Assembly: GCF_014696715.1 (NCBI RefSeq) | Contig: NZ_JACJQO010000006.1 | Span: 62,001 to 126,000 of the forward strand | Source: Pseudanabaena sp. FACHB-2040 | Lineage (GTDB): Bacteria; Cyanobacteriota; Cyanobacteriia; Phormidesmidales; Phormidesmidaceae | DNA: 64,000 bases | Reading direction: 5' to 3' | Part shown: piece by piece, positions 48,401 through 61,103 of the stretch | How positions within the stretch are numbered: position 1 is the first letter of the stretch | Layout: each line of letters opens with the position of its first letter | Made by a program: the position numbers and the translations under genes | The notes under the pieces: generated by a model | The model's input: the letters and a program-made list of their open reading frames with translations, nothing else | Databases searched by the model: none | What the model was told of the DNA's origin: nothing

Positions 48401-49092
48401 GGCGAGACAGCCTTACCAGACATTCTTTAAGACACTAGCAAATTCAGCCGGATGAAAGGGTGAATTGGGGCCAAATAACCACAAAGTCTACCAAATTGTT
48501 CCCAGGTGGGCTTCGAGCTACCCAGCCAAGCTGGCTCTTGGAGCTGTCCTCAGGCTGCCAATGCAAAGTTCACTAGCACAACATTAGCTGCTGAGAAAGA
48601 CCTTTGACCTTAACCCAAACGATTAACGTCTCTCAAAAACAACGACTGAGTTGAATATAGAAAGCTACTATAACCAGCTTCTAAAACCCTTGCTCAAGCT
48701 GCCCTAAAGTATCTCTGCCACCGCTAGAGCCAGCCCTACGTAATTAGGGAAACCATTCTTTAAGTTGAGATGACTCAGGCTGTTAATAGGAGCAACAGGT
48801 TTCTCCTGCTGCATGGGAGGTAGCAAAGCATGTTTTAGGCCATTTTTAACGCTGTCTTTGCTAAGCTCCAAACGCGACTTAAACCCAAACTCAAATACCT
48901 TAATGACGCAGCTGGCTTAAGTCGCAAAACTTAATACAGCTAGCTTACTCAATTCGGCCCTAGACCGTCAAACTGTTAAATTGGATGCAAAATTAAATCG
49001 CAAAGCATTGGAATGTTTAACAATCTCAACATTGCAATGCTTGTTATTAAGCGACTGCAGTCTGATTGGAAAGTGAATTGAGGTGTGATGTT
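48401..49092. promoter_or_regulatory. Long divergent intergenic region with a hairpin upstream of natF
   Basis: 692 bases upstream of the transporter operon. At 49003-49042 lies an imperfect inverted repeat with 15-base arms: AAGCATTG-g-AATGTT against AACATT-g-CAATGCTT, 10-base loop, a single G/G mismatch. It ends 50 bases before the natF ATG. I looked for an NtcA-type GTA-N8-TAC site and found no convincing one. The first 500 bases show nothing identifiable. Confidence 0.5.
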
Positions 49093-50163
49093 ATGCGTAA
49101 GTGGGGCCTTTTGGCAGCAGCCTTATCGGTGACCTTAGCCGCTTGTGGAAGCGGTACCACCACTACAGGCAGCACTGCCACGACCGACGGAGAGGGCGGC
49201 ACGACAGCTGCTGCTGGCAGCCGTCTAGGTGCCGTTCAGCAGCGTGGTGAGCTGATCTGCGGCGTTGAAGGAACTATTCCTGGATTTAGCTCTGTGGGTT
49301 CCGATGGTGCCTACACCGGGCTAGATGTAGATGTTTGTCGGGCTGTCGCAGCAGCCGTTTTGGGCGATGCCGAGGCAGTTGAGTTCCGTAACCTTGACTC
49401 AACAGAGCGTTTCACCGCACTGCGGGGCGGTGAGGTAGATATGCTGTCTCGAAACACTACGTGGACCTTGAGCCGAGATGCGGCTGGCGGCAACGCGATG
49501 GAATTTGCCCCAACCACCTTCTTCGATGCTCAAGGCATGATGGTACGGGCCGACAGTGGGGTGGAAACCCTGGAGGATATGGAAGGGCAGTCTATCTGTG
49601 TGGAAACCGGCACCACAACTGAACTGAACCTGACTTCTCGAATGAGTGAACTGGGCGTGGCCTATACCGACGTCAAGTTCCAAGACGGCAACGAGACGGC
49701 TCAAGCCTACTTAGAAGGTCGCTGCGACGGGTTTACCTCAGATAAATCTCAGCTCAATGCTCGCCGAACCAAGTTCTCCAACCCCGATGAGCACGTCATT
49801 CTAGATGTGTCGATGTCGAAGGAGCCGCTAGGCCCAGTGACCATGAACAACGACTCTGCCTGGTATGACGTCGTTAAGTGGGTCATTTACGGTTTGGTTC
49901 AGGCCGAAGAGTTTGAAATTACCCAAGCTAATGTGGATCAAATCGCCAGCTCTACCCAAAACCAGGACATCAAGCTGCTGCTGGGCGTTGAAGGCGATCT
50001 GGGCGCTCAGCTAGGCCTAGAGCCAGACTTCATGGTCCAAGCTATCAAAGCTGTGGGCAACTACGGAGAGATTTACGATCGCAACATCGGCGACGACATT
50101 CCCCGGGGCCTAAACCAGCTTTGGAGCGATGGAGGTCTAATGTACTCGCCGCCGTTCCGTTAA
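49093..50163 (+). CDS. natF: Polar amino-acid ABC transporter, substrate-binding lipoprotein
   Basis: Periplasmic binding protein of 356 residues. The signal ends in a lipobox (TLAAC, Cys18), followed by a Thr/Gly/Ser-rich linker. The family-3 binding fold begins near residue 45 (LGAVQQRGELICGVEGTIPG) with GLDVDVCRAVAAAVLG, LRGGEVDMLSRNTTWTLSRD, ICVETGTTTELNL and the end segment YGEIYDRNIGDD. It matches the AapJ/BztA/NatF group for acidic and neutral polar amino acids. ATG at 49093 follows AGGTG; a TTG at 49066 is less likely. A terminator-like hairpin follows, then both permeases and the ATPase. Confidence 0.93.
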   Translation: MRKWGLLAAALSVTLAACGSGTTTTGSTATTDGEGGTTAAAGSRLGAVQQRGELICGVEGTIPGFSSVGSDGAYTGLDVDVCRAVAAAVLGDAEAVEFRNLDSTERFTALRGGEVDMLSRNTTWTLSRDAAGGNAMEFAPTTFFDAQGMMVRADSGVETLEDMEGQSICVETGTTTELNLTSRMSELGVAYTDVKFQDGNETAQAYLEGRCDGFTSDKSQLNARRTKFSNPDEHVILDVSMSKEPLGPVTMNNDSAWYDVVKWVIYGLVQAEEFEITQANVDQIASSTQNQDIKLLLGVEGDLGAQLGLEPDFMVQAIKAVGNYGEIYDRNIGDDIPRGLNQLWSDGGLMYSPPFR

Positions 50164-50184
50164 GTTGTCTATCGCCAAAGGCTG

Positions 50185-50226
50185 GGTCTGCTGAGTTTGC
50201 GGCTAATATCAGCAGACCTTTCTTTT
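50185..50226 (+). terminator. Terminator/attenuator between natF and natG
   Basis: GGTCTGCTGA (50185-50194) pairs perfectly with TCAGCAGACC (50209-50218), then TTTCTTTT. It starts 21 bases after the natF stop. A leaky terminator here would make more binding protein than permease, a common arrangement for such operons. Confidence 0.75.
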
Positions 50227-50316
50227 GATCTTGACTCTTTTCAATTGTTTGCCTGAATTGCCCATAGCCGGCTCTCCAAAGCAGGGTATGGGCCTGACCT
50301 TAACCTTTAAGTCGGC

Positions 50317-51486
50317 ATGACCAGCCCATCCGAAATTCGTGTGCCCCTTTGGCGTGACGATCGATTCTGGAAGATTGTTTTTCAGGTTGTGGTCGCCGCT
50401 GTAGTAATTGGATTGCTAGGCATTTTCATCAGCAATCTCAATCAGAACATGAGGCGTCAAGGGCTTGTGTTCTCATTTTCTTTCTTAAGAAATACTGCTA
50501 GCTTTGGCATTGGCGAAAGCCTTATTCCCTACTCCCCCAACAACAGCTACATTCGTGCCATTTTAGTAGGTGTCATCAACGCACTCCGGGTCATTCTGGT
50601 AGGGTTTGTGCTGACTACGCTGCTAGGGGTTCTAGCGGGTGTCGCCAGCTTCTCAAATAACTGGCTGGTGCGAAAACTAAGCCAGGTATATGTCGAGATT
50701 GTCCGTAACACGCCGCTGCTGCTACAGCTAATTTTTTGGTATTTTCCGGTCTTTTTGAGGCTGCCATCGCCGCAAAACCGGCTGCAGCTACCAGGGCCAA
50801 TTTATGCCAGCAAGACGGGTATCTACCTGCCTTGGCCTGCTCAGGGGCCGATGTTTTGGGTGTGGCTAGCGGTGCTGGTAGGGCTTGCGATCGCAGCCTG
50901 GCTGGTGCTACAGCAGCGCACCCGTGCCATGGTTGAGCGGGCTGCCACCGGCAAGCCTCAGCTCATGGTGCTAATCGGCATTGGGGTGGTCGCACTGCTG
51001 GTTTTGACCATCGCCATGAATTGGCAGATCCCTCAATCTGCGGAAGGCAGCCCCCAAATAACAGGCGGGCTAAGGCTCTCCTTAGAATACGCCACCATTC
51101 TAGTGGGCCTAGTGGTATATACCGGCGCATTTATTGCTGAGATTGTGCGAGGCGGCATTGAGTCAGTGTCTAAGGGGCAGTGGGAGGCCGCTCGTTCGTT
51201 GGGGCTCAAGCCCGGTCAGGCAATGCAGCTAGTGGTCTTTCCCCAGGCCATGCGGGTGATCATTCCGCCCCTCAACAGCCAGTACATGAACCTGGCAAAA
51301 AACTCCAGCCTGGGATTGGTGATTGGCTATCCCGAAATCTTTTCAGTCTCCAGCACGACCTTCAACCAGACCGGGCGGCCAGTGGAAGTGTTCATCCTTT
51401 TGATGGGCATCTACCTGCTGATTAACCTAGTTATTTCGGTCGTTATGAACACCCTGAACCGAAGCGTTCAGTTTAAGGAACGCTAG
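50317..51486 (+). CDS. natG: Polar amino-acid ABC transporter permease (AapQ/BztB type)
   Basis: Inner membrane permease of 389 residues. TM helix near 20-43, then a long periplasmic-side loop typical of this subgroup (NTASFGIGESLIPYSPNNSY), several helices, and the transporter EAA region: VRGGIESVSKGQWEAARSLG followed by LKPGQAMQLVVFPQAMRVII. An additional hydrophobic insert (about 170-235) separates the N- and C-terminal parts, as in AapQ/BztB but not in short HisM-type permeases. Forms a heterodimer with the next gene's product. 153 bases separate it from natF. Confidence 0.92.
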   Translation: MTSPSEIRVPLWRDDRFWKIVFQVVVAAVVIGLLGIFISNLNQNMRRQGLVFSFSFLRNTASFGIGESLIPYSPNNSYIRAILVGVINALRVILVGFVLTTLLGVLAGVASFSNNWLVRKLSQVYVEIVRNTPLLLQLIFWYFPVFLRLPSPQNRLQLPGPIYASKTGIYLPWPAQGPMFWVWLAVLVGLAIAAWLVLQQRTRAMVERAATGKPQLMVLIGIGVVALLVLTIAMNWQIPQSAEGSPQITGGLRLSLEYATILVGLVVYTGAFIAEIVRGGIESVSKGQWEAARSLGLKPGQAMQLVVFPQAMRVIIPPLNSQYMNLAKNSSLGLVIGYPEIFSVSSTTFNQTGRPVEVFILLMGIYLLINLVISVVMNTLNRSVQFKER

Positions 51487-51533
51487 CGACTGTGCTTTTG
51501 TTGTCAACACTGCTGTGCTTGCCCTGCTGACTC

Positions 51534-52742
51534 ATGACTGCTACTTCACCGTCAACCGCCCCACCATTAGGCAACCAATCCACCCCGATCGTCTGGCTGC
51601 AAAAAAACCTGTTCAACAGCTGGTTCAACTCCATTTTGACCCTAGTGCTGGGGGGGATTCTGGCTTGGGCCCTGTTTAATTTAGTCTCCTGGGCATTTAC
51701 TGAAGCCCTGTGGGAGGTGATTCCGGCCAACCTGCCGCTCTATTTTGCCGGACGCTACCCAGCTAGTGAGTACTGGCGGCTCTGGCTTATTCTGGGCCTA
51801 ATTAGCGCATTGGCTGGTCTCAGCTGGGGCGTCTTAGCTCGCAATGTTTCCTTTTTGTTCACTCGAGGATCTTTGATTGTTCTCGGGGTTTTGGCAGTAA
51901 TTGGGGTGCTAACGCCGACGCCGCCTGTCTATCGGCTGCTGATTGTGGGCCTAATCGTGATTTGCGCTGGCACTGCCTGGCTTGGTCGGGAACTGGCGCG
52001 GCGATTGCCCAACATGGCGCAATGGGTTTCCCTAGCCTGGGCACTTTCCTTTTTCGTGGTGCTCTGGCTGCTTGCAGGTGGGCTGGGTCTAGACCAGGTT
52101 TCTGCTAACAACTGGGGCGGTCTGTTGCTGACCCTGATATTGTCGGTGGTCAGCATTGTGCTGTCGTTTCCGCTGGGGGTCATTCTGGCTCTAGGACGGC
52201 AAAGCAGTCTGCCCGTCGTTCGCTGGCTTTCAACGATTTACATTGAGCTGGTTCGAGGCGTGCCGCTGATCGCCATCTTGTTCATGGGGCAGGTCATGAT
52301 TCCGCTGTTTCTGCCGGAAGGGGCTCGCCCAGATCGGGTGCTGCGGGCCATCGTGGGCCTAACGCTGTTTACCGCTGCGTATCTGGCAGAAAGCGTGCGC
52401 GGGGGACTGCAGGCTATTCCCAGAGGCCAGGTAGAAGCTGCCCGTTCCCTAGGGCTGAATGCACCTCTGACGATGGGCTTTATCGTGTTGCCCCAGGCGC
52501 TCAAAATTGCCATTCCAGCGATTGTGGGTCAGTTTATCAGCCTATTTCAAGACACGACTCTGGTGTCGATTGTGGGCCTGCTAGAACTGTTGGGAATTAG
52601 CCGTTCTATTATCTCAAACCCTGAGTTTCTGGGTCGCCACGTCGAGGTTTACCTATTTATCGGAGTGATATATTGGGTTCTCTGCTACGCCATGTCGATC
52701 GGCAGCCGCAAGATTGAAGAGAAGCTGCATACAGGACATTAA
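51534..52742 (+). CDS. natH: Polar amino-acid ABC transporter permease (AapM/BztC type)
   Basis: Second permease of the heterodimer, 402 residues. It starts with a hydrophilic stretch, then about eight hydrophobic helices. The EAA loop is VRGGLQAIPRGQVEAARSLG with LNAPLTMGFIVLPQALKIAI. VELVRGVPLIAILFMGQ (VxxxRGxP) is the usual permease signature. Only 47 bases from natG. The gap to the ATPase gene holds an inverted repeat. Confidence 0.92.
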   Translation: MTATSPSTAPPLGNQSTPIVWLQKNLFNSWFNSILTLVLGGILAWALFNLVSWAFTEALWEVIPANLPLYFAGRYPASEYWRLWLILGLISALAGLSWGVLARNVSFLFTRGSLIVLGVLAVIGVLTPTPPVYRLLIVGLIVICAGTAWLGRELARRLPNMAQWVSLAWALSFFVVLWLLAGGLGLDQVSANNWGGLLLTLILSVVSIVLSFPLGVILALGRQSSLPVVRWLSTIYIELVRGVPLIAILFMGQVMIPLFLPEGARPDRVLRAIVGLTLFTAAYLAESVRGGLQAIPRGQVEAARSLGLNAPLTMGFIVLPQALKIAIPAIVGQFISLFQDTTLVSIVGLLELLGISRSIISNPEFLGRHVEVYLFIGVIYWVLCYAMSIGSRKIEEKLHTGH

Positions 52743-52767
52743 TTGTCTCTCCGTGTAACAGTTGACA

Positions 52768-52800
52768 GACCTACCTTCCAGGAACGCCGTATGGTAGGTC
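52768..52800. repeat. Inverted repeat between natH and the ATPase gene
   Basis: GACCTACC (52768-52775) and GGTAGGTC (52793-52800), 17-base spacer, followed by AAAATATC. It may modulate read-through to the ATPase gene. No T-run, so not a standard terminator. Confidence 0.4.
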
Positions 52801-52866
52801 AAAATATCTATAACTTGAAGAATTCACAGCAGTTTGTAGTTGTTTGTCAGCGCATTAGGTTTAGCA

Positions 52867-53679
52867 ATGGGCGCGACTGAGAGGGAGAAAATAGAGGCAA
52901 TGACCCAGTTTCAAACGGAACCTAGCTCCACCAGAGTTAAAAGCTCTGAGCCGGTAATCGTAGCCACCGATGTGGAGAAGTGGTATGACAACGGCTTTCA
53001 CGTCCTCAAAGGGGTTAGCTTGACGGTGTTTCGGGGCGAAGTGGTCGTTGTGATGGGGCCATCAGGTTCCGGTAAATCCACCTTCATCCGCACCTTCAAC
53101 GCACTTGAAGAGTATCAGAAGGGCAGCATTGAGGTAGACGGCATCAAAATCTCCCACGACCTCAAGAATATTGAGGCGATTCGCCGGGAAGTGGGTATGG
53201 TGTTTCAGCAGTTCAACCTATTTCCCCACCTGAGCGTGCTGCAAAATATCACCCTGTCTCCTATCTGGGTGCGTCGCTGGCCCAAGAAAAAGGCGCAGGA
53301 CGTAGCCATGCAGCTTCTAGAACGGGTCGGCATTTCAGAGCAGGCGCACAAGTATCCGGGGCAGCTCTCAGGCGGTCAGCAGCAGCGAGTTGCGATCGCA
53401 CGTTCCCTAGCCATGCAGCCCAAAGTCATGCTCTTTGATGAGCCCACCTCCGCTCTCGACCCAGAAATGGTGCGCGAGGTCTTAGATGTAATGCGATCGC
53501 TGGCCGACTCGGGCATGACCATGGTCTGCGTCACCCACGAAGTTGGCTTTGCGCGGGAGGTGGCCGACCGAGTAGTGCTGATGGATGGCGGCTACCTGGT
53601 AGAAGAAAATACCCCCAACGAGTTCTTCAGCAATCCTCAAGAAGAGCGCACCCAGCGTTTCCTGTCACAGATTCTCTAG
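52867..53679 (+). CDS. Polar amino-acid ABC transporter ATP-binding protein
   Basis: ATPase of the transporter, 270 residues from the ATG at 52867 (ATG at 52900 is also possible, giving [10 protein letters not shown]). All ABC motifs are present: Walker [10 protein letters not shown] near residue 65, Q-loop FQQFNLFPH, signature [15 protein letters not shown], Walker [15 protein letters not shown] and the switch His in CVTHEVGF. Matches AapP/BztD/GlnQ. In Anabaena the equivalent permeases NatG and NatH share an ATPase (BgtA) encoded elsewhere, as I recall; here the ATPase is in the operon. A strong terminator follows. Confidence 0.94.
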
Positions 53680-56339: not shown

Positions 56340-57044
56340 TCAATTATGGCGAGAACGGTGCCGAATAAACCGGAGGGTTTCCTCAAAGACGAAGGGAGGA
56401 ATTTCTGCCTCCTCTGCACAGGAAAACGCTTCGATAATACTTTCATGATCAGGCAGCGTTTCAGGCAGCTGAGTCTGTTTGAGGTGAGACAACACCTCCG
56501 GATCAACCGGCGGCAATTCTTGTCCCGAATTGCAGGCAAAGAAGGTAAACGTCATACTGCCCAAGCGCACACGATCCCCGTCTTGAAGAAATAGGGGGTG
56601 CCGAATCCGCTCGCCATTGACGAAGGTGCCGTTGGTGCTGCCCAAATCAGTTATATAAAATCCATCGTCTCGATACTGAATAGCAGCATGACGGCGAGAC
56701 AGACGTTTATCTCTAACGGATAGGGAAACTTGGCTGGTGTCGCGACCAATGACCCAGATATGCTGCGGCTGTACCAGGATCTGCGACTGCCCCTGCAGCA
56801 GGTTAGTCATTAGAAAAGCCTGACGGTCGAGCACCACACCCTGAATGTAGTTGAAAAGCCCCAACTGCCCCGGAATTTTGGCCCCTGTTTGCTCCAGTGC
56901 CAAAATCTCGTTTAGGAGGTCTCGGTGTCGTTCGTACAGCCTGGAGAACACCTGGAAAAGCTCCAACCGCTTCTGCAGTTCTCGATCTTCAAAGGAGTCT
57001 TTCAAGGACAAAGAATACTCGTAAAGACTGTGGGGATCCAGCAT
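56340..57044 (-). CDS. FHA-domain protein
   Basis: Phosphothreonine-binding protein of 234 residues. N-terminal helical region (about 1-90), then the FHA domain at about 95-170: HIWVIGRDTSQVSL, RLSRRHAAIQYRDDGFYI and DLGSTNGTFVNGERI. The C-terminus (about 175-234) is acidic then basic. No kinase or phosphatase gene is adjacent. ATG 57044 chosen over GTG 57053. It lies 35 bases upstream of the deacetylase gene in the same direction. Confidence 0.92.
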   Translation of the reverse strand: MLDPHSLYEYSLSLKDSFEDRELQKRLELFQVFSRLYERHRDLLNEILALEQTGAKIPGQLGLFNYIQGVVLDRQAFLMTNLLQGQSQILVQPQHIWVIGRDTSQVSLSVRDKRLSRRHAAIQYRDDGFYITDLGSTNGTFVNGERIRHPLFLQDGDRVRLGSMTFTFFACNSGQELPPVDPEVLSHLKQTQLPETLPDHESIIEAFSCAEEAEIPPFVFEETLRFIRHRSRHN

Positions 57045-57222
57045 TATAGCCACTGCACACTTTCGATCATTATTCCAGTATTACGCGATTCCAGAAGGCA
57101 CAAAGGATGCTCTTCACACAAGCTTCGGTAAAGTCTAAAGGAAAGACTTAGTTGAACCTATAGCAAATATCTGTCGTGGGTTCGCGATAGATCATACCTT
57201 GGGTAGAGTATACCCAGGTCAG

Positions 57223-58101
57223 CTAGGCCTCACACAGAAACTTTAGGAGTTCTCGGTTAACAACTTGGGGGGCCTCCTGCTGGATCCAGTGGCCACATTG
57301 AGGAATTTGCCGCAGCTGTAGGGGAGCTGTGACCAGAGTCGCCAAGTTATCTAGCAAGGCCTCACTAAAGAAAGTGTCTTCTTCTCCCCAGAGCACCAGA
57401 GTTGGTATGTCGATTGGCTCGATAGGAGTGCCCCAGCCCTTCATCCAGGTTGGCAGAGACAGCAGCTGGCGGTAGTAGTTAAGGGCAGCTGCGATCGCGC
57501 CCGGCTTGCCCAGCGCAGCCTGGTAGAGTTCTGCGTTTTGAGCGGAAAAAGCGCCCTTACGAACTGCCTGATTTTGAAAAAAGGATCGCACAAATCCCGG
57601 TAAATTCTGCTCAATCATCCATTCTGGAAGTGCCGGCAGCTGCAGCGCCACCAGCCGCCAGCTACGCCGCAGCTGATCTAAGTTGCTGACCAGCAACCTG
57701 CGAAACTGCTGAGGATGGGCCCCATTGAGAATAGCGAGCCGACTGACTGACTCCGGCATTGTCTGAGCCAAGTGCCAAGCAAGCGTGCCTCCCCAAGCAT
57801 GGCCAATAATGTGGGCACGGGAATAGCCAAGCGACATCATCAGCCCCAGAATATCCTGACTGAGCGTGTCCAGGTCGTATCCAGTAGCAGGCTTTTCCGA
57901 GTCGTTGCAGCCCCGCAGGTCGGGCACAACAACCCGAAACTGCCGAGACAGCGCCGGAATTTGAAATCGCCAAGAATACCAAAACTCCAGCACACTGTGC
58001 AGCAAAATCACTAGCTCCCCTTCCCCCTGGGTCACATAGTGCAGCCGGACATGATTGGTTTCAACGTACTGGTGGTGCCACCCAGAAAAAGCCGTTGTCA
58101 T
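57223..58101 (-). CDS. Alpha/beta hydrolase of the epoxide hydrolase group, nucleophile replaced
   Basis: Protein of 292 residues with the epoxide hydrolase/haloalkane dehalogenase layout: LLHSVLEFWYSWRFQIPAL near residue 35, PDLRGCNDSEKP near 62, cap domain about 130-215, acid residue in VLWGEEDTFF and His in CGHWIQQEAP. But the nucleophile elbow reads GHAWGGTLAW; residue 102 is Ala (codon GCT) where family enzymes have Asp. The oxyanion motif HG(F/Y)PE is also altered to HSVLE. So it is either inactive or works by another mechanism. ATG 58101 preferred over GTG 58110. Confidence 0.87.
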   Translation of the reverse strand: MTTAFSGWHHQYVETNHVRLHYVTQGEGELVILLHSVLEFWYSWRFQIPALSRQFRVVVPDLRGCNDSEKPATGYDLDTLSQDILGLMMSLGYSRAHIIGHAWGGTLAWHLAQTMPESVSRLAILNGAHPQQFRRLLVSNLDQLRRSWRLVALQLPALPEWMIEQNLPGFVRSFFQNQAVRKGAFSAQNAELYQAALGKPGAIAAALNYYRQLLSLPTWMKGWGTPIEPIDIPTLVLWGEEDTFFSEALLDNLATLVTAPLQLRQIPQCGHWIQQEAPQVVNRELLKFLCEA

Positions 58102-58461
58102 CGAGCCCACAATCCCTAAGGTCTACCTTCAGGCCCTCTACTCCCAGGTGACCTGCTACCCTGTTTTGTGGCACTACAAGTTCCAAAGTCTAGGTCTTGA
58201 ACGGCAGCATGAAGCTAGAGCACACCGAATCAACCCTTGAAGTTAGCAGACCCAAAGCAATGCCAGAGTGTAATCTAGGATACCCTATCAACCTGGCAAA
58301 AGTGACAGGACTCTGTCCTGCTCTAAAAACTATCTTGTAAAGGCTTTCTATTCTAAAGCTTGGGCCTCTGCAAAACACACCAGTCTGGCCCAAAAACACT
58401 TTTATAGGCTAAAAACTACCAAAGCTTCACTTCCCTGAGCCATCTACCCTGGCAGGATCTG
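58102..58461. other. Intergenic region upstream of the hydrolase gene
   Basis: 360 bases between DUF1815 and the hydrolase, both on the minus strand. The only clear structure is CAGGAC-TCT-GTCCTG at 58306-58320. Open frames in it have no recognisable content. Confidence 0.35.
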
Positions 58462-58806
58462 CTAGACCGGGTGCAGGAGAGACTGCTGAGAGTTGGAAGG
58501 CTTGATCTGATACTTTACTAGATTAGCCAGTTCCTGGAGCTGGTTGATGGCTTCAGCCCCCTCTAGCTTCATCAATTCGCGGTCATCGCGCATCTCAGTC
58601 CAAGTGATCCCGTAGTCAGAAACCAAGAACCGAATCAAATGGTCGTCTCCTAGACTGACCATGAAGGAGGCGCTATTCATTTGGCCGCCACAGGTATAGC
58701 AGGAAGCCAAATAGCCTCTGTTTTCCAAAACAGTTGCCAAAGCCTGAAGGTTCATTACCAGGTCTTGGACAAACTGCCTATGTTGCTCTGCCAATCTGAC
58801 AAACAT
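58462..58806 (-). CDS. DUF1815 protein
   Basis: Conserved cyanobacterial protein of 114 residues, unknown function. MFVRLAEQHRQFVQDLVMNL, GYLASCYTCGGQMNSASFMV, FLVSDYGITWTEMRDDREL and KLEGAEAINQLQELANLVKY agree closely with the DUF1815 family as I remember it. The CYTC pair could bind metal or form a disulphide. ATG 58806 is chosen because the family starts at MF(V/L)RLAEQ; an upstream frame extension is not conserved. 424 bases of non-coding sequence lie upstream. Confidence 0.87.
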   Translation of the reverse strand: MFVRLAEQHRQFVQDLVMNLQALATVLENRGYLASCYTCGGQMNSASFMVSLGDDHLIRFLVSDYGITWTEMRDDRELMKLEGAEAINQLQELANLVKYQIKPSNSQQSLLHPV

Positions 58807-59230
58807 ACCCAATTCTCCTCTACACCACACCCTATTGTAAGGGCAATTATTAACAATCTCTTAAGGTTTTGCAGTGAACAGTATGAAATTCTGCGAAACA
58901 ATGAATGGATCTATCCTAGCGAGCGAATTCAAAAATGAGCAGGCTCGTGAAGGAACGTGAATGCAACCCCTGGTTTCTAGACCTTTCTACAGCCAGCTAA
59001 CTTGGTTTTCCTGACGATTTGGCAAAAAGTGAGGCTAAATGGCTAATCGTCAGGCACAGTCCAACCAAAGACCGGATTTGCCTAACGGTAGTGCGAAGTT
59101 CTAAAAGCTGCAGTAGCCAGTCGAACACTTTTAGCGGTCAGGAACTCAGAATAATCCTTTTTTGGCCTCTTTTGGTTAGGGAAGCCTCACAAGCGAGTAG
59201 CTTAGCTATCGGCAGGACTAATCAGGGTAC
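58807..59230. other. Intergenic region with inverted repeats, possible RNA
   Basis: 424 bases between DUF2839 and DUF1815 (both minus strand). CCTGACGATT at 59010-59019 is repeated inverted at 59045-59054 (25-base spacer). CTAAAAG at 59101-59107 and CTTTTAG at 59128-59134 form a second pair. The run CCTTTTTTGG follows at about 59156. An open frame through here uses a TTG start and no family is recognised. A small RNA is possible but does not match any consensus I know. Confidence 0.35.
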
Positions 59231-59446
59231 TTAGTCGGCCAATTCCCACCAGCCCAATCCTGGGCCAACAAAGCGTAGCGTAATCCAGAAGCCGATGGTT
59301 AGTATGATGGCTATCCAGGTGGCCTGGGTCGTCCAACGCACAAACTGCTCAGATTGCTTCTTAGTAATCGGCAGCATTGGCAGAATCGGCTGATCTTTGC
59401 CGTATTCTTCTCCGAGCTGCTCCTTACGGCGCTTAGCTTCCCCCAT
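59231..59446 (-). CDS. DUF2839 small membrane protein
   Basis: Cyanobacterial protein of 71 residues with MGEAKRRKEQLGEEYGKDQ, LPITKKQSEQFVRWTTQATW and one TM helix (IAIILTIGFWITLRFVGP), ending GLGWWELAD. Fits DUF2839. Function unknown. It follows the DinG-like gene by 73 bases in the same direction. Confidence 0.9.
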   Translation of the reverse strand: MGEAKRRKEQLGEEYGKDQPILPMLPITKKQSEQFVRWTTQATWIAIILTIGFWITLRFVGPGLGWWELAD

Positions 59447-59519: not shown

Positions 59520-61103
59520 TTACTCGGGATCAAACAACCAGTTTTGGTGTAGGTGGCGAGTACAGACAGCCGGTCCCAGCGCCTCTAAGATCTGATGGCC
59601 ATAGCTGCGGTAGTGGACTCGAGTATCTAGTAGAGCCACGGCTCCCTGAGATTTCCGTACTGAAGCAAGGGCTCTCTGGAGCTCGTTGAGGGCCGTTGGC
59701 AGCAGGTACAGGCGAAACCAGTCTTGTCGTTTGCCCTTGTAGTAAGCAACCCGTCCGGCCACTAGGGGGTTTTCTAGAGACGGAATGGGCAGGGTGGTCA
59801 TAATTAACAGGGAGGGAGCTGGCAGATGGCTCTGCTGGGCCTGCCAGAATGACCAGCCAGTGACCAGAATGCTGTGGGGAGCTAGCTGGGTTCGCTCTAC
59901 CTGCACTCTGGAGCCAAACTCGGCCGCTAAAGTAGCTCCTAGCTGCGCCTTTAGCGGAGAGTCTCCAACCAGGATGACAGTAAAGCCTGAGGTAGGTGCA
60001 TTGAAATAAAGCAGCTGCCGAATCTCTGAGTGCAGTACAGTCTGAAACTGCGGCGTGTTGGGCAGAGGCAGGTGATCGGGCAGGTAAAGCTGAATCAGCT
60101 CATTTTGCCGATCGGGGGAGAACTTGAGACAGGTCATCTCGCCCAATCCTAGGCGTTGTCGGTAGGTGCCTGCTTGGGCATCTTGGTCGAGGGCTGCGCC
60201 CATCAGCACCAGCGACTGCTGCTCCCAGATAGGCTGCAGTAGAGGGGCTAGGTCGATAGGGCTACAATGTAGGCAAAATTGCCCTTGGGAGCGGTTGAGG
60301 GAGAGCCACAGAAGACGCTCTGCGATCGCAAACTGCTGCCAAAACCGCTGCCAATTGACGGGCATGGCTGCCGCTGCCTGTACTGGCTGAGGATGGTGCC
60401 CAACCAGTTCCTGGTACAGCGCCTGCAGCAGCGTCTGTTCTGGATTGTCCAGCAGGTGGCACTGGTAGGGGTTCTCAGGATGCTGAAAAGCAATGTGAGT
60501 GAGCCGCACCCGAGTATCTCGAATAAAAGTCTGCTGATCGGGGTAGGCCAGCGCCAGCGCTTCCCAGTCGGCAGCGCCAATGGCGATGGTTAGCTGCGAT
60601 CGCACCCAGTCTTCCAGGTCATCTACACCATCTAGCAAGGTCGGTATACCCACAGGAAAAGCAGTCTGTGGGCCTAGGCGATCAGCCAGCCAAGCTTCAG
60701 GGGAGGTAATCAGCACCCCAGTAAAGTGGGGATCGGGCCACCGATCTCCTACCTGCACAGATTTGTAGGTAGGCACCCACTCACGTATCCGGGGCAGGTC
60801 GATCATGAGCAGCTGCTGACGGATCAGGTCGGGAACCACTATCACCACAGGCCCTGGCCAAAGCAGCGAAGACATGAGATAGCCTAGGCGGTAGCGCCCG
60901 TGGTAAGCAGCAACACTGCCTGTCTGCAGCAGGGCGCTGCGATCCAGCCGAAGCGCCCGGGCAACTAGACGAGCCAGGGTGAGATGATGCGGCCAGACAG
61001 GTTCGTCCTGCTGTCGCAGAAAGGCTCGCAAGTGCTGGTGAACTTCAGCTTCGATCACGGGTTTGATCCGGGCTTGGGAGGTTGACTTCCCATTTTGACA
61101 CAT
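59520..61103 (-). CDS. DinG-like helicase homologue with degenerate ATPase motifs
   Basis: Protein of 527 residues that follows the XPD/DinG superfamily-2 layout. The C-terminal half is convincing: ILVTGWSFWQAQQ, MTTLPIPSLENPLVAGRVAY, YLLPTALNELQRAL and GAVALLDTRVHYRSYGHQIL all align with DinG. But Walker A is gone: near residue 68 it reads AYHGRYRLGYL in place of GTGTGKSLAYL. The DEAH motif is replaced by DGVDDL near 156, and the motif VI arginines by ALASVRKS. ATP hydrolysis is thus unlikely. I believe similar proteins occur in other cyanobacteria, so it is a conserved pseudo-helicase rather than a decaying gene. Only 27 bases follow the pentapeptide gene. Confidence 0.82.
   Translation of the reverse strand: MCQNGKSTSQARIKPVIEAEVHQHLRAFLRQQDEPVWPHHLTLARLVARALRLDRSALLQTGSVAAYHGRYRLGYLMSSLLWPGPVVIVVPDLIRQQLLMIDLPRIREWVPTYKSVQVGDRWPDPHFTGVLITSPEAWLADRLGPQTAFPVGIPTLLDGVDDLEDWVRSQLTIAIGAADWEALALAYPDQQTFIRDTRVRLTHIAFQHPENPYQCHLLDNPEQTLLQALYQELVGHHPQPVQAAAAMPVNWQRFWQQFAIAERLLWLSLNRSQGQFCLHCSPIDLAPLLQPIWEQQSLVLMGAALDQDAQAGTYRQRLGLGEMTCLKFSPDRQNELIQLYLPDHLPLPNTPQFQTVLHSEIRQLLYFNAPTSGFTVILVGDSPLKAQLGATLAAEFGSRVQVERTQLAPHSILVTGWSFWQAQQSHLPAPSLLIMTTLPIPSLENPLVAGRVAYYKGKRQDWFRLYLLPTALNELQRALASVRKSQGAVALLDTRVHYRSYGHQILEALGPAVCTRHLHQNWLFDPE

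Follow-up and report, generated by a model that had tools for sequence, protein, structure and literature searches.

The alpha/beta hydrolase analysed here belongs to an epoxide-hydrolase-like group of cyanobacterial orthologues, of which it represents a nucleophile-free branch, or one of several such branches. It is encoded in a 64,000-nt stretch of DNA (the window) from Pseudanabaena sp. FACHB-2040 (contig NZ_JACJQO010000006.1; source genome of 6.3 Mb, labelled G000). Judged from its active-site residues, epoxide hydrolysis through an aspartyl ester is very unlikely for this protein, which probably serves some other purpose now. We tentatively propose, at a little under an even chance, that the protein is a conserved cyanobacterial orthologue of the CH65-EH type that has lost covalent aspartate chemistry and, as a nucleophile-free member maintained by selection, employs its His-Asp pair to act on a ligand that is bound without a covalent link.

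The query protein matches the Abhydrolase_1 profile (PF00561) with an E-value of 2.5e-32 and a score of 112.9 bits, against a gathering cut-off of 25.8, and its best match among the solved structures of the PDB is the epoxide hydrolase CH65-EH (5ng7, E 2.2e-76). An in-frame GTG at position 58110, upstream of the ATG, would lengthen the protein by three residues if used as the start codon. The AlphaFold (AF2) model, built on an alignment (A1) of the query with 33 of 36 loci from a contig scan (L034, L049 and L051 were left out), has a mean pLDDT of 79 and a pTM of 0.84, with low confidence in the cap stretch 142-157 that includes Arg149. The predicted fold is that of an alpha/beta hydrolase, and its best match is CH65-EH, with a Foldseek TM of about 0.90.

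Table 1. Positions in the window of the hydrolase gene, its diagnostic residues and the recurrent neighbouring genes.
Feature	Position	Strand	Evidence and remarks
Epoxide-hydrolase-like alpha/beta hydrolase without nucleophile	57223..58101	minus	292 aa plus stop, ATG start; Abhydrolase_1 and 5ng7 matches
Ala102 codon GCT, nucleophile position (Asp101 of CH65-EH)	57796..57798	minus	Sequence and 5ng7 alignment
HSVLE (residues 35-39) in place of HGFPE, oxyanion-hole loop	57985..57999	minus	Gly36 to Ser, Phe37 to Val, cis-Pro38 to Leu; roles as described in PMC6198070
Arg149 (CGG), position of CH65-EH cap tyrosine Tyr148	57655..57657	minus	5ng7 alignment; model poorly predicted at 142-157
Tyr210, second cap tyrosine, kept	57472..57474	minus	5ng7 alignment and orthologue site comparison
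Asp242, triad acid (LWGEED), kept	57376..57378	minus	Sequence and 5ng7 alignment
His271, triad histidine (QCGHW), kept	57289..57291	minus	Sequence and 5ng7 alignment
FHA-domain protein, next gene downstream	56340..57053	minus	Pfam FHA, 4e-23; 29 of 64 loci
DUF1815 protein, upstream	58462..58830	minus	Pfam, 4.3e-54; 36 of 64 loci
DUF2839 protein	59231..59446	minus	Pfam, 3.3e-31; 29 of 64 loci
Helicase-C-like protein	59520..61103	minus	Pfam Helicase_C_2, 1.3e-5; 23 of 64 loci

CH65-EH is a metagenomic epoxide hydrolase from a hot environment (PDB 5NG7 and 8AGM/N/P/S). As described in PMC6198070, its triad consists of the nucleophile Asp101, Asp241 and His270; the cap residues Tyr148 and Tyr209 hold the epoxide oxygen, and the oxyanion hole is formed by the main-chain nitrogens of Phe34 and Trp102, with a cis-Pro after the Phe. 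By alignment, Asp101, Asp241, His270, Tyr148, Tyr209, Phe34, Trp102 and the cis-Pro correspond in the query to Ala102, Asp242, His271, Arg149, Tyr210, Val37, Trp103 and Leu38, respectively. The query resembles CH65-EH in fold and cap (TM about 0.9, 39-40% identity), acid, histidine, second cap tyrosine and the Trp after the nucleophile elbow, whereas it differs in having Ala for Asp101, Arg for Tyr148 and HSVL for HGFP. Thus, the elbow (GHAWGG, residues 100-105) has no Asp nucleophile, the HGxP oxyanion motif of epoxide hydrolases with its cis-Pro is absent, and the cap-tyrosine pair is incomplete. The earlier note had read the replacements of GHDWGG by GHAWGG and of HGxPE by HSVLE, together with retention of the triad acid and histidine, and all of these readings are borne out by the sequence; the arginine at the Tyr148 position and the serine in place of Gly36 of HGxP are departures beyond those that it listed.

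The loss of the nucleophile extends beyond the window. In a contig scan of GTDB, 36 loci carried a relative of the query, with Asp at the nucleophile position in 32, Gly in three and Ala in one; apart from two non-cyanobacterial loci of merely 30-38% identity, the relatives are cyanobacterial, those with Asp (e.g. Phormidium, Oscillatoria and Chamaesiphon) being 55-64% identical. A match at E 1e-95 or better was found in 145 of 388 whole genomes of a class-wide sample, and in 18 of 63 genomes of the window's order, which contains the window's family only. Together with four genes of that family (G001, G011 and the partial G018 and G047), these make up 149 orthologues that were read individually; the residue counts rest on this reading, and a separate pattern scan covered Ala or Gly only. 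The nucleophile is Asp in 133 orthologues and is replaced in 16, by Gly in 10, Ala in three, Ser in two and Asn in one. Within the window's family, 20 orthologues divide into 13 with Asp, four with Gly from neighbouring genera (G009, G047, G048 and G046, Leptolyngbya sp. PCC 6406) and three with Ala. The three Ala genomes are both members of the window's genus (G000 and G001) and G002, with identities of 68-95% (about 69% between G002 and the query), and Ser36 accompanies Ala102 in each of them; with Asp at this position in 133 of the 149 orthologues, the change is more than a chance event. Outside the family, Gly occurs in two further families, in the one sampled genome of f9 (G070) and in five of six f11 genomes, the sixth of which has no match, Ser in both genomes of one f24 genus and Asn in one f5 genome. 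The earlier note had asked for such a comparison of both motif positions and had held that orthologues with Asp and HGxPE would point to a private mutation or a sequencing error. Most distant orthologues do have that combination, but the nearest ones share both changes with the query.

Each matched genome showed one copy at E 1e-95, among six candidates scored per genome, and the nucleophile loss therefore sits in the orthologue itself. A spare copy left by duplication was considered and rejected: the second relative in the query's own genome bears Asp, is 46% identical and belongs to a separate group, whose 12 tree sequences all have Asp. In the contig scan, the metagenome-assembled genome Geitlerinema sp. 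BBD 1991-9 has two loci, both with Asp. A single in-frame stop (TAG or TGA) lies within the match in four f5/g18 genomes (G066, G090, G103 and G147), where the extracted frames have 289 residues. The Gly orthologue of the metagenome-assembled genome Leptolyngbya sp. RL_3_1 (G047; locus L113, also L049) is split into two frames, likely by an assembly error because the contig coverage is 2.4.

How often was the aspartate lost? FastTree was run on 136 of 138 sequences (12 of them outgroup), the partial G018 and G047 being left out of trees and site counts, and IQ-TREE on 75 rows (71 from group I and four outgroup) without columns 36-38 and 102; the last 23 proteins are counted in the residue tallies and are absent from the trees, the site counts and the tree-length share. 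The two trees agree on the losses. On the IQ-TREE tree, Asp versus non-Asp requires at least four changes, and separate residues require five, and the same residue appears to have been lost separately in lineages other than the query's. The window's family is starred in this tree (99/92) and contains Asp, Ala and Gly members, and the f9/f11 Gly group (98/82, starred) joins the Asp-bearing G102 (98/94, starred). A single clade for all Ala and Gly proteins is 25.7 log units worse, with an AU p of 0.073, which disfavours one origin of all these changes without formally rejecting it. Support for joining the Ala clade of the query to its Gly neighbours is weak (72/37), and the two may represent one loss or two. 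A single A-to-C change, which the earlier note had suggested as the source of the alanine, could have turned GAT into GCT, but a route via Gly is also conceivable, given the glycine of the neighbouring clade. The codons at site 102 vary silently within clades (GCT/GCC; GGA/GGC/GGG; GGT/GGC), and the Ala and Gly residues are therefore long established. The Ser102 codon is AGC, and since a change from Asp (GAT or GAC) to Ser takes two base changes, the Ser lineage probably went through Gly or Asn, as far as the codons indicate.

None of the 25 proteins compared from the window's family and the G102/f9/f11 group has the cis-Pro of HGxP, although 13 of them bear Asp, so that the oxyanion loop changed before or without the loss of Asp in these lineages. 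The Pro may have been lost once or twice: a single origin of this change has an AU p of 0.38, with a common clade at 0.926 in FastTree and two groups in IQ-TREE. Asp-bearing cyanobacterial orthologues, which resemble the query in identity (55-64%) and in neighbouring genes common to many of them, differ in keeping Asp102 and, outside the lineages just named, the Pro of HGFPE, which is present in 94 of 96 Asp-bearing reference proteins and replaced by Ala in two. The Ser and Asn changes arose with this Pro still present.

Genes without the aspartate are under strong purifying selection and are not decaying. NG86 estimates of dN/dS are 0.046 for the Ala-Ala pair G000-G001, 0.022 and 0.049 for Gly-Gly pairs and 0.051 for the Ser-Ser pair, compared with 0.070 for an Asn-Asp pair and 0.017-0.094 for 11 Asp-Asp pairs; five of 21 pairwise values, including that of the Ala pair G000-G002, were lost to saturation. 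With YN00, the four Asp-less pairs range from 0.025 to 0.068 and the Asp-Asp pairs from 0.028 to 0.141. In a branch model (a custom script applied to 24 of the 149 genes over 291 codons and one topology, with Ala, Gly and two Ser genes as the Asp-less set and the Asn gene left out), omega is 0.055 on Asp-less branches versus 0.097 on the others (2dlnL 19.1, p 1.2e-5), with no significant difference between the stems and crowns of the losses (p 0.22). When the Ala clade is set against all remaining branches in this model, no difference emerges (0.066 versus 0.076, p 0.57), which excludes decay and gives no indication of special selection. Decay of the gene, a private mutation or a sequencing error, which would draw on the broken frame of the low-coverage, Gly-bearing RL_3_1 genome and on the Asp and HGxPE of most distant orthologues, has to contend with purifying selection as strong as in Asp-bearing genes, an alanine common to three genomes of which one is just 69% identical to the query, and the 15 Asp-less matches other than that of RL_3_1, in which no in-frame stop is reported. 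On these grounds a pseudogene or a sequencing error is rejected, with a residual probability close to nil.

Apart from the altered motifs, nearly all of the near-invariant core has been kept. Of 82 near-invariant sites (conservation of 97% or more among 96 reference sequences, in a comparison of 124 group I proteins), each loss clade differs at three to five in half or more of its members, chiefly at 36-38 and 102: the Ala clade departs at five (36, 37, 38, 102 and 107), its Gly neighbours at four (38, 75, 102 and 107) and the other Gly clade at three (38, 102 and 274). All 15 Asp-less proteins with data keep His271 and Asp242, along branches with a combined length of 4.1 changes per site. At the first cap tyrosine the Asp-less proteins differ: the query's clade has lost it, as has the Gly clade next to it, but it persists in the second Gly clade and in the proteins with Ser or Asn. 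The Asp-less groups therefore need not share one new function. This tyrosine is also absent in 14 of the 96 Asp-bearing reference orthologues.

Both cap tyrosines vary in proteins that keep the aspartate. Two f26 genomes (G127 and G174; L230 and L241) and ten of its genus g41 (L231-L240) combine the Asp with GHDCGG and with Pro at the first cap tyrosine; these proteins may have an unusual chemistry too, because both the Trp after the nucleophile and the first cap tyrosine are replaced in their sequences. With Asp kept, the second cap tyrosine has given way to His in G086, G100, G112, G113 and G207, and genus g6 and G059 of the window's family have Val or Ala there, which indicates that the cap pair erodes independently of the nucleophile. 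His substitutes for one cap tyrosine in Cif-type enzymes, as described in PMC8244358.

What does the protein do without its nucleophile? The loss of Asp should abolish epoxide hydrolysis, as in the related bacterial enzyme Cfl1, in which, according to PMC8244358, the D123S substitution sharply cuts this activity to almost none and leaves the active site largely unaltered. Chemistry without a nucleophile has a precedent in HOD, a cofactor-independent dioxygenase of the alpha/beta-hydrolase fold in which a His-Asp dyad serves as the base and the nucleophile is dispensable; some HOD relatives naturally carry Ala at the nucleophile position (PMC10548524). By description, HOD and QDO are like the query in their fold, in the His-acid pair and in this natural alanine, and unlike it in having Ser at the elbow, an acid elsewhere in the chain (D126 with the nucleophile S101) and known substrates (PMC10548524). 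Enzymes of the HOD type oxygenate N-heteroaromatic compounds. A His-acid dyad of the HOD type is present and conserved in the query, where its function is a prediction. In the proposed mechanism, a ligand would sit in the pocket between core and cap, where the His271-Asp242 pair would deprotonate it or form hydrogen bonds with it. The vacated nucleophile elbow and the altered oxyanion hole could accommodate O2, water or a portion of the ligand, and the product would arise without an ester intermediate, as in HOD-type dioxygenases.

Alternatively, the protein may be a non-catalytic ligand sensor or scaffold that takes up a small molecule in its pocket, or a partner such as, perhaps, the FHA protein encoded downstream, without any chemistry, a reading that we regard as a serious contender of somewhat lower probability. 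The nucleophile, the oxyanion loop and one cap tyrosine have changed together in the query, and NDRG3 provides a non-enzymatic member of the same fold in which catalytic residues are replaced (PMC7022630). However, none of the three triad residues is left in NDRG3, and the path of the substrate is obstructed (PMC7022630), whereas the query keeps two of the three, His and acid, and so lacks the whole-triad replacement typical of NDRG proteins. The FHA gene lies close downstream at 12 of 13 Ala/Gly loci (all except G070) versus 17 of 51 other loci, a contrast not corrected for kinship; it also stands beside five of seven Asp-bearing loci of the window's family, and so does not track the loss there and was discarded as a sign of nucleophile loss. 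Kinship may explain the association across families, and none is visible within the family. The signalling proteins KAI2 and RsbQ, which use the same fold and which the earlier note had proposed for comparison, both have an intact Ser-His-Asp triad and thus offer no parallel for the loss of a nucleophile. We rank a non-covalent reaction slightly above a non-enzymatic use because the His-Asp dyad is kept; as an argument for chemistry its retention is weak, since selection has preserved 77-79 of the 82 near-invariant sites in any case. The earlier note was correct on the sequence and on an established role, which is under selection and for which Asp-ester hydrolysis is very unlikely; in naming ligand binding as that role, it picked one of two open explanations, and chemistry without a nucleophile agrees no less well with the retained His-Asp pair.

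It is improbable, in our estimate, that hydrolysis goes on by means of another nucleophile or an activated water, with Ser36, Cys65 or, in the Ser lineage, Ser102 as candidates. Position 36 is Gly in all 132 Asp-bearing proteins with data, but five of the 16 proteins without Asp have Ser or Asp there, and these five fall on three different branches. Branches without Asp account for 15% of the FastTree length, so that three of three would fall on them by chance with a probability of about 0.004 (0.153 cubed), although the pattern was noticed post hoc. Cys65 occurs in the Ala and Ser clades, but it is found in two Asp-bearing proteins too, and in two genomes Ser102 would bring back a triad like that of serine hydrolases. 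Nine of the 10 Gly proteins, however, have neither a change at position 36 nor Cys65 (the tenth, G070, has Asp36), and the near absence of epoxide hydrolysis in Cfl1 D123S (PMC8244358) also speaks against this substitution of nucleophiles.

If the aspartate has indeed been shed repeatedly and independently, to Ala, Gly, Ser and Asn, with the His-acid pair kept, the group as a whole may have a job that does not need a nucleophile. The orthologous group may never have been an epoxide hydrolase at all, because the first cap tyrosine is absent in 14 of 96 Asp-bearing references and is Pro in 12 f26 genomes; epoxide hydrolysis by the Asp-bearing members is putative as well. It is a less likely, though wider, reading of the losses that the job of the entire group never needed the nucleophile, so that the proteins would be non-covalent enzymes that have escaped recognition, or would sense a small molecule together with the FHA protein, and the Asp-bearing members would be misnamed epoxide hydrolases. 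By sequence, the Asp-less proteins resemble hydrolases and epoxide hydrolases even though they are barred from that mechanism. Our search of the open-access literature, limited to an open library, found no paper on nucleophile-free orthologues of this type. A locus that loses the same catalytic residue again and again while purifying selection stays strong offers a natural experiment on the conversion of a covalent hydrolase into something else. Orthologues with Asp, Gly, Ala, Ser and Asn are available as a matched set for biochemical comparison, with Asp, Gly and Ala all present in one bacterial family.

The gene neighbourhood is shared by proteins with and without the aspartate. When neighbouring frames were clustered in 64 loci (G050, G010 and G011 entered twice and several loci were cut by contig ends), the recurrent order was the helicase-like gene, DUF2839, DUF1815, the hydrolase, present at all 64, and the FHA gene (Table 1). 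The complete order occurs in the Ala genomes G000 and G001, in G009 with Gly and in G011, G014, G016, G050 and G061 with Asp. At the two Ser loci, the search picked up an FHA match in G155 and none in G172, and DUF1815, DUF2839 and the helicase-like gene were found at neither. The helicase-like protein is conserved in cyanobacteria and matches Helicase_C_2 weakly. A simple pattern search detected no DEAH-type box in 23 helicase-like relatives (the window's protein and those of 22 loci), and a Walker-A-like string, placed right where the frame begins, is confined to G000 and G001; the helicase-like protein may thus be, on its sequence, a second degenerate enzyme of the same neighbourhood. Elsewhere in the window, the plus-strand region 49066-53679, judged by eye from its translations, resembles an ordinary polar amino-acid ABC transporter operon with a binding protein, two permeases and an ATPase.
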